Of a stretch of DNA of 7,028 nt, positions 2,253 through 7,028 are shown one piece after another (position 1 is the stretch's first letter; each line of letters starts with the position of its first letter). The translations under genes were made by a program, and so were the position numbers. The notes under the pieces were generated by a model. It was not told where the DNA came from and did no database searches. It was given only the letters and a program-made list of their open reading frames with translations. The stretch comes from Deltaproteobacteria bacterium RIFOXYA12_FULL_61_11. GTDB lineage: Bacteria > Bdellovibrionota_F > JAHFAK01 > YA12-FULL-61-11. The stretch lies in NCBI GenBank assembly GCA_001799195.1, contig MGSU01000234.1, positions 1 to 7,028 on the forward strand, in the 5' to 3' direction.

Positions 2253-4460
2253 CGATCCACCTCCTCGGAACTCCCGCACCTCTGGCACGACGAATGCGAG
2301 GGTCTGTGCGAGTTTCTGCGAGTCGGGTTCTTCGAACTCGGCCTCGACTTCTCGGTCCTCCGGGGTACTCCCCGCTTGCTCGAGCGTCTTGGTTTCAATC
2401 CGGGACACGTCGAAGGGCAACCCTTCGTAAGATTGGTACTCAAGGAGCATCGCGCCGAGATGCTCGCCGCCTTGGCTGCGTTGCAACCCGGCGAGGGCAG
2501 TCGGCTCGGGACCGGGCTGATCGATGGACGCATGGTCAGTGTAGCGGTAGAGTTGTTCGGGTGGCGGCCTCGGGTCGCTCCCCAGAGCATACTCGTCCTC
2601 GTTCCCCCGCCCGATGCGACCTGTCCTCCTCCGCCGGCGGCCTCGACCTTCTTGCAGGACATGCTCGATGCCCTTGATGAAACGGTCCTCGTCAGTGACG
2701 AAGGGTACCGCTGGGTCTTCCTCAATGACAGGGCCTGCGCCTTGCTCGGTGGTCGCCGGGAAACGCTGCTCTTCACCTCGAAGGCACCCGAGATCTCCCC
2801 CGAGGCGCTGGAGCGGCTCCAGAGAACCGCTGACCGGGTCAGGAGCAGCGGTCGCCGTCAGCAAGAAGAACTCGCTCTCGACAAGGAGACCGGAGGACGG
2901 GTCCTGGCCCTCGAGCACTCGCTGTGGATCGATCCTCACAGCCGCCAGAGTTTCGTCATTTGCACCGGCCACGAGGTCACCGAAGCCCACGTTTGGCGGG
3001 ACCAACTCAACGAGCGCGCCGACATGCTGGCGGAACTCAACGCCATGGCCCTGCGCCTGGGCCGTTCGAAGGAGAACGCCGAGTTGGTCTCCGGGCTCGT
3101 CCTGACGGCACGACGCTTGGCCCGAGCCCGGGTAGCCCTGTATTTCGAACCGGAGAAGAGTTCCGGCTTCTTGCACGTCCGCACGGTCGACGGAGACCTC
3201 GAATACCATCGCCTGCGCGATGAACCGAGCGTAGCGGCGCTGAACCGCTTGAAGGTTCCCCAGTCCGAGGAACTCCGCGAATGGTTGCTGGCCAATGCGG
3301 TCGCAACCTTGCCCGGTCCCACCGACCTCTTTCCCGAAGGATGCGTACTCGATCCCGCGCTGTCGACGGTCCTGGACCTGGGGCAGGTCCTCCGCCTGGT
3401 CTTCCACGACGGGCGCGAGGTCCTGGCCGTGCTCGCCCTGTTGCTCCCCGGTCAGAGCCGTCTCGCAGTCCACGATCTGTTCGAGACCTTCGTCGGGCTG
3501 GCCTCTTCCTTACTCCAGCGAGTTGAGGCCGAGAAGCGCCTCCACCAGAGTTTGACGTCCTTCGGTCACCTCGTCGAGTACGGTCTCGACGGCATCGTCG
3601 TCTTTCTCGAGGGGGAAGAGCACCCCACCTATCTCAACGAGACCGCCCGGCGCATGCTCGACCTCGCCCCCGGAACGATGGGACTTCCTCCCGGGGTCCG
3701 CGAGGGCGGGGAGGTCCCCATCCTGCGGGGTGAGGAAGGAGCCGGGCTCGCTGAAGTCCGCGTCACTCGGATTACGTGGATCGGCCAGCATGCTCGCCTC
3801 GCCGTGCTTCATGATGTGACCGAGCAACGCGAACAACGCCAACGCATCGAGGCCTCGTTGCGGGAGAAAGAGGTGCTGCTCCAGGAGATCCATCACCGGG
3901 TCAAGAACAACCTCGCCATCGTGTCCAGTCTCTTGGCCCTACAACAACGCGAGGTCGCCGATCCGGCCATGCGCGGTCTGCTCCTGGAAAGCCGGAACAG
4001 GATACAGACCATGGCCTTGATCCACGAGCGGCTGTATCGCTCCGAGGACCTCGCCAAAGTTGGGATGGCCGAGTACCTGGCTTCGTTGGTGACCTACCTC
4101 AAGCGCAGCTACAACCTCAACCCCCGACTCCGCTTGACCGCGAGCGTGGAAGCCGGATTGGTCCTCTCGGCCTCTCGGGCCATCCCCTGTGGCCTGATCG
4201 TCAACGAATTGGTCGCCAATGCCATCAAGCACGCCTTTCCCAATGACCGAGCCGGCAGCATCGAGGTGCTCCTGCGTCGCTGCCCGGACGACCTGCTCGA
4301 ACTCTCGGTCAAGGACGACGGTGTCGGCTCGTCGAACGAACTACGAGCCGGCGGGAGTCTCGGCAAGGTCATCGTCGCCTCGCTCGGAGAGCAACTCGGA
4401 GCCACCTTGGAAAACGGACCAAGTCCGGGCACCAAGGTGATCTTGCGTTTCCCGTCCTGA
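2250..4460 (+). CDS. Soluble multi-sensor histidine kinase (PAS-PAS-GAF-PAS-HisKA_2-HATPase)
   Basis: The protein has about 736 residues from CTG 2250; the first conventional start is TTG 2376, giving 694. The frame before 2376 reads as protein (CEFLRVGFFELGLDFSVL) and completes a PAS-like domain, so I extend to 2250. From the CTG numbering: PAS 1 at about 17-110, PAS 2 at about 137-245, a GAF-like region at about 262-432, PAS 3 at about 440-530, and a short charged linker. Then comes the HisKA_2 H-box EIHHRVKNNLA (His548-His549, the second being the likely phospho-acceptor), the N-box NELVANAIKHAF (Asn652), G1 DDGVG (689-693) and a G2-like SLGKVIV (703-709). No membrane segment is visible, so it senses a cytosolic signal and autophosphorylates with ATP. 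No response regulator is next to it, so its partner is unknown. PAS domains can hold flavin, heme or small ligands, but no diagnostic motif (such as the LOV NCRFLQ) is present. It is divergent from can and 81 bp ahead of a purine permease on the same strand. Confidence 0.9.
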   Translation: MRSTSSELPHLWHDECEGLCEFLRVGFFELGLDFSVLRGTPRLLERLGFNPGHVEGQPFVRLVLKEHRAEMLAALAALQPGEGSRLGTGLIDGRMVSVAVELFGWRPRVAPQSILVLVPPPDATCPPPPAASTFLQDMLDALDETVLVSDEGYRWVFLNDRACALLGGRRETLLFTSKAPEISPEALERLQRTADRVRSSGRRQQEELALDKETGGRVLALEHSLWIDPHSRQSFVICTGHEVTEAHVWRDQLNERADMLAELNAMALRLGRSKENAELVSGLVLTARRLARARVALYFEPEKSSGFLHVRTVDGDLEYHRLRDEPSVAALNRLKVPQSEELREWLLANAVATLPGPTDLFPEGCVLDPALSTVLDLGQVLRLVFHDGREVLAVLALLLPGQSRLAVHDLFETFVGLASSLLQRVEAEKRLHQSLTSFGHLVEYGLDGIVVFLEGEEHPTYLNETARRMLDLAPGTMGLPPGVREGGEVPILRGEEGAGLAEVRVTRITWIGQHARLAVLHDVTEQREQRQRIEASLREKEVLLQEIHHRVKNNLAIVSSLLALQQREVADPAMRGLLLESRNRIQTMALIHERLYRSEDLAKVGMAEYLASLVTYLKRSYNLNPRLRLTASVEAGLVLSASRAIPCGLIVNELVANAIKHAFPNDRAGSIEVLLRRCPDDLLELSVKDDGVGSSNELRAGGSLGKVIVASLGEQLGATLENGPSPGTKVILRFPS

Positions 4461-4541: not shown

Positions 4542-5840
4542 ATGCACCTCCTCGAACGTTTCTTCAACCTCCGCCTCGCAGGCACCAACCTCCGTACCGA
4601 GGTCCTGGCCGGGGCCACCACCTTCCTGACCGCGGCCTACATCATCTTCGTCAATCCTGACATCCTCGCCAAGGCCGGTATGGACCGCCATGCTCTGGTC
4701 GTGGTGACCTGTTTGGTCTCGGGCCTAGGCACCCTGCTCTTTGCACTGGTTGCCAAGGTGCCGATGATGATGGCCCCGGGCATGGGTCTCAACGCCTTTT
4801 TCACCTTCACCATCGTGCTGGGCCAAGGAGTGTCGTGGCGGACAGCCCTCGGGATCGTCTTCGTTTCCGGCGTACTCTTCCTGATCCTTACCCTTATTGG
4901 TGTCCGGGAGAAGATCATCCACAGTATTCCCCCTCATCTGCGTTTCGCAACCTCCATTGGTATCGGAGTGTTCATCGCTTTTATCGGCTTGCAGAACCTC
5001 GGTCTCATCAAGGACAATCCCGCCACCCTGGTGCAGCTCGGTCGCATCGACCTACCGGCTCTCTTGGGACTCGGCGGCTTGGTGTTGACCGCCCTGCTAA
5101 CGGCTCGGCGTGTCACTGGGGCCATCTTGTGGGGTATCCTCGCGACCACGGTGACCGGCCTTGCTCTGGGCTTGGTCTCCTTGCCGACGACCTGGCTCGA
5201 CCTCCGTCCGGACATCACCCCGATCGCCTTCGAACTCGACATCCCCGGGGCACTGCGCCTCGGCCTGTTGGCCAACATCCTGGCTTTCATGTATGTCGAC
5301 CTCTTCGACAGCCTGGGTACCATGCTCGCCGTGGCCAATCAGGCCGGCATGGTCAAGAACGGCAAGATCGAGAAGATCGGCAGCATGCTCACCTGCGATG
5401 CCGTGGCAACGGTCGGAGGGGCCTTGCTCGGCACCTCGACCACCACGACCTATCTCGAATCGGCCTGCGGTATCGCCGTGGGCGGTAGGACCGGACTGAC
5501 CGCCCTGGTCACCGCCGCCCTGTTCCTCTTCGCCATTCCGCTCGCTCCGGCCCTGGCCATCGTTCCGGGTTTCGCCACGGCACCGGCCCTGATCGTGGTC
5601 GGGAGCCTGATGATGGCAGAGGTCCGACAGCTCGATTTCAGCAGGATAGAACTGGCCTTGCCTGCCTTCCTCACCATGATCCTGATGCCGCTCACCTACA
5701 GTATCGCCACCGGGATCATGTTCGGTTTCCTGGCGCACGTCTGCATCTTCGCCCTGATCGGCAAGGCCCGCGAGTTGAATCCGACGGTCCTGGTCATCGC
5801 TGCGTTCTCGCTGCTCAACCTGGTACTCGGTCAGGGATGA
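4542..5840 (+). CDS. NCS2-family purine permease (AzgA/PbuG type)
   Basis: The 432-residue inner-membrane protein starts at ATG 4542 with GAGGGAG eight bases upstream. It belongs to the azaguanine-like branch of the NCS2 nucleobase transporters, which import adenine or guanine/hypoxanthine with protons through 14 membrane segments. Family marks are the N-terminal TEVLAGATTFLTAAYIIFVNP, the TM3-type GMGLNAFF (80-87), DLFDSLGTML (Asp253, Asp256) and GTSTTTTYLESACG (Glu306) followed by IAVGGRTGLTA. The acidic residues in the last two motifs are the expected purine-binding positions. Length and motifs are complete. The exact substrate cannot be told from sequence alone. It lies 81 bp after the kinase with no clear terminator between them and may be co-transcribed; no purine riboswitch fold is visible in that gap. 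It converges with the hydrogenase-like operon. Confidence 0.94.
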   Translation: MHLLERFFNLRLAGTNLRTEVLAGATTFLTAAYIIFVNPDILAKAGMDRHALVVVTCLVSGLGTLLFALVAKVPMMMAPGMGLNAFFTFTIVLGQGVSWRTALGIVFVSGVLFLILTLIGVREKIIHSIPPHLRFATSIGIGVFIAFIGLQNLGLIKDNPATLVQLGRIDLPALLGLGGLVLTALLTARRVTGAILWGILATTVTGLALGLVSLPTTWLDLRPDITPIAFELDIPGALRLGLLANILAFMYVDLFDSLGTMLAVANQAGMVKNGKIEKIGSMLTCDAVATVGGALLGTSTTTTYLESACGIAVGGRTGLTALVTAALFLFAIPLAPALAIVPGFATAPALIVVGSLMMAEVRQLDFSRIELALPAFLTMILMPLTYSIATGIMFGFLAHVCIFALIGKARELNPTVLVIAAFSLLNLVLGQG

Positions 5841-5886: not shown

Positions 5887-6642
5887 TTAGCTCCGCCCCT
5901 GGATCTTCAGCAGTCCGTCGAGGATGGTCAAGGGATGAGGAGGGCAACCGGGGATCCAGAGATCCACCGGTAAGAGAGCTCCACAGCCGTTGTGGACCTC
6001 CTGATGGTCGGCAAACGGACCACCGCTGATGGCGCAACTCCCAACCGCTATGACGAGGCGCGGCGGCGGTATAGCCCTGTAGGTTTTTTCCAGGGCGAGG
6101 GCCATGTTCTTCGTCACCGGACCGGTTACCACGAGGCCGTCCGCATGCCGTGGGGAGGCAACGATTTGGATACCGAAGCGCCCCAAATCGAAGGACAGGG
6201 TGCTGAGCACGTTGATATCCGCCTCACAGGCATTACACCCTCCGGCTGAAACCTGCCGCAGCTTGAGCGAACGACGGAACAACCGGAAACGGCGATCGTC
6301 GCGTTGCCCCTTAGCGAGCGGTGCACCTTCCCGGAGGATGAGCTCCTCGCGCGTCCAGGTAGCGAGACGATGGTCTCGGGTGAACTGCAAGGCTTGTTCA
6401 GGACAACTCCTTGCGCACTCGCCGCAGAAAAGACACTGTCCGAGGTCGAGGGCAGGCCTGGTCCCGGACAGGGTGAGCGCACCGGTCGGGCAGACCTCGG
6501 AACATCTCTGACAATTCGACCTACAGGTGCCGGGGCTCATCACCGGCAGACCGAGGTAACGGTCGGGTAGGGGGGGCGAGTCCTGCGGGTAGGGCATGGT
6601 CCGGTACCCTTGCCGGAAGCGTTCGAGCAACTCTTTCAACAT
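5887..6642 (-). CDS. Fused ferredoxin / HycG-NuoB-like small subunit of a hydrogenase-related complex
   Basis: The 251-residue protein joins two electron-transfer subunits. Residues about 35-90 form a two-cluster ferredoxin domain: C40-x3-C44-x2-C47-x3-C51-P and C70-x2-C73-x2-C76-x3-C80-P. Residues about 120-251 are a NuoB/HycG/HyfI-like 20-kDa domain with a full proximal [4Fe-4S] ligand set: GGCNACE (C136, C139), GSCAISGG (C203) and PGCPPHP (C233). The protein should pass electrons between a ferredoxin partner and the large subunit on the cytoplasmic face of a membrane complex. I chose ATG 6642 because GAGG lies five bases upstream; an ATG at 6660, overlapping the preceding gene by 11 bp, would add six residues but has a poor ribosome site. 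It follows the large subunit by 7 bp, in the order large-ferredoxin-small seen in E. coli hycE-F-G and hyfG-H-I, with the last two genes fused. The first cluster motif has one more residue than the usual CxxC. It is the last gene of the operon. Confidence 0.92.
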   Translation of the reverse strand: MLKELLERFRQGYRTMPYPQDSPPLPDRYLGLPVMSPGTCRSNCQRCSEVCPTGALTLSGTRPALDLGQCLFCGECARSCPEQALQFTRDHRLATWTREELILREGAPLAKGQRDDRRFRLFRRSLKLRQVSAGGCNACEADINVLSTLSFDLGRFGIQIVASPRHADGLVVTGPVTKNMALALEKTYRAIPPPRLVIAVGSCAISGGPFADHQEVHNGCGALLPVDLWIPGCPPHPLTILDGLLKIQGRS

Positions 6643-6647
6643 CGCCG

Positions 6648-6651
6648 CCTC
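6648..6651 (-). promoter_or_regulatory. Ribosome site supporting the start at 6642
   Basis: On the minus strand GAGG (6651-6648) lies five bases before ATG 6642-6640 and overlaps the stop codon of the large-subunit gene, which suggests translational coupling. The alternative ATG at 6660 has only TTGCGGGC before it. Confidence 0.5.
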
Positions 6652-7028
6652 ACAGGTCATGCCCGCAATAGGAAAGATTGAAGCTCTTGTTGCACAACGG
6701 GAAATCTGAAATTTCTTGGTTGCGCAGGGCCATCGAGAGGCCCATCCAGTTGTGGAAGGATGGATCGACGATCTTGTAATGCGCGATCCGGCCTGCCTGA
6801 TCGGTCATGGCTACATGACAAATCTCTCCGCGCCAACCTTCGACCATGGACACGACCAGGCTCTCGGACGCGAGCGGACCGCAATCGGCCCGCAACGCCC
6901 CTCGGGGCAGGTCGGGTAACTGGGCGCGCAGGAATTCCATGGAATGCTCGAGCTCGAGCCAACGCACCCACGCTCGAGCAAAGACATCCCCGCTCTTCCC
7001 AACCGCGACCTTCACCGGGGCTCGTTTG
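6650..7028 (-). CDS. HycE/HyfG/NuoD-like large subunit, C-terminal fragment, NiFe ligands replaced
   Basis: The last 125 residues are present; the frame is open to the right edge (KRAP precedes the GTG at 7015), so the start lies outside. The segments GDVFARAWVRWLELEHSM, SMVEGWRGEICHVAM, YKIVDPSFHNWMGLSMALR and the terminal DFPLCNKSFNLSYCGHDL identify the catalytic-type large subunit of group 4 [NiFe]-hydrogenase-like and complex I-like systems. In true group 4 hydrogenases the end reads D-x-PL-(x)n-DPCxxCxxR, with both Cys binding nickel and iron, then a tail removed by an endopeptidase. Aligned without gaps, the two ligand positions here are Ser and Gly (a Cys sits just before the Gly), and the stop codon follows where that Arg would be. 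This fits the energy-converting hydrogenase-related (Ehr) group, which lacks the metal site. The N-terminal ligand pair cannot be seen. The stop overlaps the ribosome site of the fused small-subunit gene. Confidence 0.9.
   Translation of the reverse strand, partial: KRAPVKVAVGKSGDVFARAWVRWLELEHSMEFLRAQLPDLPRGALRADCGPLASESLVVSMVEGWRGEICHVAMTDQAGRIAHYKIVDPSFHNWMGLSMALRNQEISDFPLCNKSFNLSYCGHDL

Follow-up and report, generated by a model that had tools for sequence, protein, structure and literature searches.

Ehr complexes are described as energy-converting or Ech hydrogenase-related membrane complexes in which the NiFe ligands are missing and for which no function is known (PMC7894505, PMC12342949, PMC10284858, and PMC6349859). 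Those of Geobacter sulfurreducens (GSU0739-45), Nitrospira, and Riflemargulisbacteria combine HyfB/C/E/F-like subunits with a large subunit, EhrL, and a small subunit, EhrS. They are common in genomes. Related systems are the Escherichia coli formate hydrogenlyase-1 (FHL) and hydrogenase 4, with the large subunits HycE and HyfG, complex I with NuoD and NuoB, and the Pyrococcus sulfane sulfur reductase MBS. The residues around the NiFe site of FHL and their complex I equivalents have been described, including proton-route roles of HycE E193, H284, R395, E437, and R478 and a canopy aspartate, D529, called strictly conserved (PMC9474812). MBS is, like Ehr, a group-4 relative without a NiFe centre; two of its four NiFe cysteines are kept, and its proximal cluster is held by three cysteines, the loop being three residues shorter and one cysteine released (PMC7684303).

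The gene analysed here almost certainly belongs to an Ehr complex and not to a hydrogenase. It is a typical Ehr gene, and since published work already describes such complexes, missing ligands included, it represents a further member of a known group, from which no essential difference was found. The locus by itself is ordinary.

An Ehr operon divided between two contigs

The window, the stretch of 7,028 nucleotides that was analysed, corresponds to the complete contig C234 of genome G000 (4.64 Mb, 87% complete). On its minus strand, the frame at 6650-6706 ends with the tail DFPLCNKSFNLSYCGHDL followed by TGA, as the first-pass annotation had read it. The following features were located, with residue numbers referring to the complete proteins and tail counts to about 190 homologues in which the tail region was aligned:

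6650..7027 (-), C-terminal 125 residues of EhrL, a HyfG/NuoCD-like large subunit (Pfam, homologues, contig overlap)
6653..6706 (-), conserved EhrL tail DFPLCNKSFNLSYCGHDL in place of the hydrogenase DPCxxC ligand motif (alignment)
6677..6679 (-), codon of N499, at HycE canopy D529; Asn in nearly all homologues
6671..6673 (-), codon of S501, at HycE Ni ligand C531; Ser in all ~190 homologues
6662..6664 (-), codon of G504, at HycE Ni ligand C534; Gly in all ~190 homologues
5887..6660 (-), EhrS, with a ferredoxin-type 2[4Fe-4S] domain and a NuoB/HycG-like domain in one chain (Pfam)
6391..6525 (-), 2[4Fe-4S] part of EhrS, with C46, C50, C53, C57, C76, C79, C82, and C86
5899..6246 (-), proximal-cluster domain of EhrS, with C142xxC145, C209, and C239

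The EhrL fragment matched the Pfam family Complex1_49kDa (3e-12) and homologues at 55-66% identity were found in other genomes, so the frame was taken as a real gene. Truncation of the frame by the assembly was ruled out, the stop being common to nearly all relatives. The missing N-terminal half was located where contig C86 of the same genome ends (L033 8360-9547); the last 43 bases of C86 are exactly the first 43 of the C234 reverse complement. The two parts match adjoining stretches of the Pfam model, and together they give an EhrL of 507 aa; this predicted join is strongly supported by the 43-bp overlap.

The gene order is hyfB-hyfC-hyfE-hyfF-ehrL-ehrS (L033 3304-8363 on C86 plus the window; Pfam). 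The membrane subunits, which the first-pass annotation had suggested looking for beyond position 7028, are thus present as HyfB-like (666 aa), HyfC-like (303 aa), HyfE-like (217 aa), and HyfF-like (493 aa) proteins encoded in one direction with overlapping or near-touching gene ends, and the ehrS start overlaps the ehrL stop. Antiporter-type Glu/Lys residues and the HyfC carboxylates are conserved. The subunit plan is shared with FHL and hydrogenase 4, from which Ehr differs in having the ferredoxin domain and the small subunit fused in one protein; partners of the HycB/HyfA, HyfD, HycH, or HycI type were not seen in the window's Ehr operon. Clustering of the neighbours in 80 loci returned no recurring formate dehydrogenase (FDH) or NuoEF genes beside Ehr operons, a result of a crude longest-ORF caller by which families could be missed; the only recurrent neighbour was the HTH-EIIA regulator gene described below.

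In the window EhrS, all twelve Fe-S cysteines are present, and they are kept in most relatives. The proximal domain carries CNAC, with the hydrogenase-like CxxC spacing of HycG and no complex I CC pair (cluster N2). In the EhrS alignment, the four proximal ligands were all kept in 171 of about 180 sequences and the eight ferredoxin cysteines in most, and redox use is therefore the rule in Ehr.

In the maximum-likelihood tree, the Ehr proteins came out as a single clade (100/100) next to HycE/HyfG and separate from NuoD; among the named Ehr-type proteins compared, that of the Geobacter argillaceus locus L067 lies in this clade, as do others. The assignment as an Ehr large subunit made from the window was borne out by this placement, by the operon, and by the four missing ligands. 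At least 580 homologous stretches were confirmed in one scan, with hosts among Planctomycetota, Verrucomicrobiota, Geobacter and other former deltaproteobacteria, Elusimicrobia, Omnitrophota, Acidobacteriota, and others; the tail motif occurred in 31/198 genomes of one phylum and 100/387 of another.

Around the operon, two ORFs of 452 and 501 aa without a Pfam match lie directly 5' of hyfB (L033 234-1592 and 1601-3106). The window also carries an aconitase C-terminal fragment (1-285, +), a DUF6206 protein (405-1274, +), a beta-type carbonic anhydrase (1412-2074, -), a PAS/HisKA_2 sensor kinase (2376-4460, +), and a xanthine/uracil-type permease (4542-5840, +), none of them with an evident link to Ehr. 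Two successive HyfB-like antiporter genes were seen in some other Ehr operons (L040, L060, L081, L089, L097, and L128).

Ligand positions, tail, and pocket of EhrL

The HycE, HyfG, and NuoCD sequences encoded in the E. coli genome were aligned in MAFFT together with 87 Ehr proteins, and an HMMER profile of 37 full-length relatives and the window fragment was compared with E. coli HycE (7z0s_E), which it matched without gaps (3e-67). Both programs returned the ungapped fit to the HycE end given in the first-pass annotation, and the HycE tail used for it was correct. HycE C241, C244, C531, and C534 correspond to A211, T214, S501, and G504 of EhrL; beside the two C-terminal ligands, the loss of which had been claimed from the window, the N-terminal pair read from C86 is also gone. 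Across Ehr, position 211 is mostly Ala or Ser, 214 mostly Thr or Ser, 501 always Ser, and 504 always Gly. With none of the four ligand cysteines left, the predicted EhrL protein cannot, as the alignment shows, be a NiFe hydrogenase of known type.

The tail motif NKSFNLSYxGxD was near-invariant across the ~190 homologues. The special role proposed for the tail cysteines was not supported, as neither is invariant: C494 is replaced by Asn, Ile, or Val in 11 and C503 by Ala or Ser in about 16 of these sequences, so that neither can be an essential ligand family-wide. A gapped alignment placing C503 on a ligand position was produced by neither HMMER nor MAFFT. The chain ends at the residue named in the first-pass annotation, L507 aligning in MAFFT with HycE R537, after which, according to that annotation, HycI cleaves, and EhrL has no C-terminal extension, in contrast to HycE and HyfG. 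The significance attached to this end did not stand, because NuoD tails (e.g., SIDIVLGEVDR) and the hydrogenase of L010 (DPCMSCMDR, CxxC intact) stop at the same point; such an end is not specific for Ehr and says little by itself.

The HycE proton-route residues E193, H284, R395, E437, and R478 are kept as EhrL E164, H254, R365, E407, and R448, among them the glutamate of the beta1-beta2 loop (E193) and the canopy arginine (R478), whereas the canopy aspartate is replaced by N499. The column of the complex I quinone His is Ile in 87/87 Ehr sequences (I163) and that of the quinone Tyr is Gly in 86/87 (G212). With the NiFe ligands and both quinone residues lost, the EhrL pocket matches neither a NiFe site nor a canonical quinone site. 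New here, as read from the alignments, are the loss of the quinone residues, the retention of the predicted proton route, and the near-invariance of the tail. Asn at the canopy aspartate position was also seen in the NuoD of G000 itself (L035 3617-4735, contig C169) and in L019.

The AlphaFold model of a relative (L036, lone chain) had a mean pLDDT of 86.6, with values below 50 in the beta1-beta2 loop and the tail, the most conserved parts of EhrL. Such values would fit, without proving, a folding of loop and tail against partner subunits or a ligand. The closest fold to this model was HycE (Z 40.4, 466 residues, 2.8 Å), which was also the best sequence match.

Cluster-poor relatives, linked regulator gene, and maturation genes

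Nine EhrS sequences have other residues, often Asp or Glu, at three or all four positions of the proximal-cluster cysteines. They are listed by the residues found in place of the four ligands:

L040 11546-12337, EhrS with NEEW
L097 11464-12300 and L125 11741-12604, EhrS with SEEW
L090 5008-5973, EhrS with DVCW
L029 637-1608 (-), EhrS with ASEH
L030 7243-7989, EhrS with -AGD
L031 3257-3796, EhrS with DCDD
L124 9511-10062 and L126 1794-2342, EhrS with TCDD

In L031, L124, and L126, where at most one proximal Cys is left, the ferredoxin domain is missing too. All nine keep the large-subunit tail. The motifs flanking the replaced ligands are intact and Oxidored_q6 is still matched, so frameshifts are not the cause. 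By our reading of a quick tree, in which they are scattered, cluster-poor EhrS arose at least five times. A homologue search found no second Ehr copy in the genomes of L029 (G057), L030 (G016), and L031 (G021). The loss of the proximal ligands in these nine relatives implies that some lineages can do without electron transfer into the pocket, and we propose that some of them may possess a redox-free Ehr complex; an unlinked subunit could supply clusters.

A gene for a protein of 238 aa with HTH_17 and PTS EIIA-2 domains (HTH-EIIA) lies directly 5' of hyfB on the same strand in 31 of 66 judgeable loci, with a gap of 14-212 bp (e.g., L026 2624-3340), and anywhere in the locus in 39/66. The histidine of its IPH motif, the expected phosphorylation site, is kept in 40/42. 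This linkage points to a possible control of Ehr by the phosphotransferase system. About half of the relatives have the gene adjoining hyfB, whereas it is absent next to the Ehr operon in the genome of the window. A search of the openly accessible literature, to which the original Ehr papers do not belong, yielded no description of the EIIA linkage or of an Ehr lacking its proximal-cluster ligands.

The first-pass annotation had expected maturation genes to be absent and had named a second, complete NiFe large subunit as evidence to the contrary. No such subunit (PF00374 search), no HypD, and no HycI were found in G000, absences that are suggestive only in a genome 87% complete. HycI was likewise not found in G043 and G057. 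HypD gave no match in the near-complete Ehr genomes G043 (98%), G235 (97%), and G239 (99%), so it is not required for Ehr, and Ehr as a Hyp-dependent enzyme was ruled out. In one phylum, HypD was present in 27/31 Ehr genomes and 111/167 others (40 no-match genomes not individually named). In one family, hypD and the Ehr operon are ~20-24 kb apart in 4/4 genomes (G024, G101, G137, and G226).

Possible reactions and paired complexes

The best explanation by analogy with related complexes, to which we give a probability of about 60%, is that Ehr is a ferredoxin-driven ion pump whose re-lined pocket takes up the acceptor. Electrons from a donor of low potential, which is assumed from Ech, Mbh, and MBS and is probably reduced ferredoxin, would enter the 2[4Fe-4S] domain of EhrS and reach the former NiFe/quinone pocket via the proximal [4Fe-4S] cluster. 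The acceptor reduced there would be neither H+ at a NiFe site nor a canonically bound complex I quinone, protons would be supplied along the retained E164-R448-H254-E407-R365 route, and the energy would drive ion translocation by HyfB and HyfF through HyfC. A redox-driven ion pump as such is probable; as the acceptor, a non-canonically bound quinone and another small molecule are each put forward tentatively. The lack of a recurring FDH or NuoEF input gene and the nine relatives without most proximal ligands speak against the redox-pump reading.

Ehr might instead be a ferredoxin:quinone oxidoreductase like complex I/NDH-1, with the quinone held by residues such as K496, N499, Y502, and W447. 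The large-subunit fold is that of the quinone-binding subunit (Z 36-38), the four NiFe cysteines are lost as in complex I while the canopy Arg, His, and Glu are kept, and G000 probably uses a quinone, because it encodes separate NuoB and NuoD proteins. We nevertheless consider this reading rather doubtful, as I163 and G212 stand in place of the headgroup His and Tyr, the EhrS cysteines are spaced CxxC as in hydrogenases without a CC pair, and the membrane anchor resembles HycD/HyfC of FHL, an enzyme using no quinone. Ehr also lacks NuoEFG, and Ehr genomes without identified quinone synthesis genes have been reported (PMC6349859); UbiA (PF01040, a very broad family) was matched in 32 of 34 Ehr genomes. 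The loss of clusters in the nine relatives would be explained if the EhrL-EhrS pair were a binding or regulatory module gating ion transport by HyfB/C/E/F, the Fe-S clusters being sensory or auxiliary. The retained tails, the sole Ehr copies L029, L030, and L031, the nearly cysteine-free small subunits of L031, L126, and L124, and the EIIA-type regulator gene favour such a module, which is unlikely for the family given the ligands kept in 171 of ~180 EhrS and the scattered, derived appearance of the cluster-poor copies.

Reduction of a small substrate, e.g., polysulfide, by the proximal cluster itself has its precedent in MBS (PMC7684303); it appears highly improbable in Ehr, where the CxxC spacing matches HycG without the shortened loop, four cysteines are available to the cluster, and no NiFe cysteine is left, compared with two in MBS. 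A formate-linked complex, either FDH-Ehr, as proposed in PMC6349859, or formate hydrogenlyase-like, would agree with the increase of Geobacter Ehr subunits in formate-grown cells (PMC7894505), but is very unlikely with no FDH genes recurring beside the operon in the 80 loci and no hydrogen-producing site left.

As a speculative possibility, the EhrL pocket (GPVHAGxIEPGHF, AGDT, EGWRGE, and NKSFNLSYxGxD) could be an active site of a third type within the complex I superfamily, distinct from both the NiFe and the canonical quinone site, with an acceptor new to the superfamily; in the few lineages of L031, L126, and L124, where almost all predicted redox ligands are lost, the complex would work as a non-redox, ligand-driven ion machine. 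The residue map makes the ligand of the NKSFNLSY pocket, the need for a quinone, and the role of the cluster-poor relatives testable. The answer bears on the change of complex I from hydrogenase to quinone reductase. It also concerns the question whether ion pumping in the superfamily serves chemistries that have so far not been looked for.

Paired Ehr operons, tandem or interleaved, were found in L124 (2987-17518), L125 (2564-12601), and L086 (4315-19916). In each pair, one tail is of the C494/C503 type and the other carries Ile or Val at 494 and Ser at 503, which suggests paired or co-regulated complexes.
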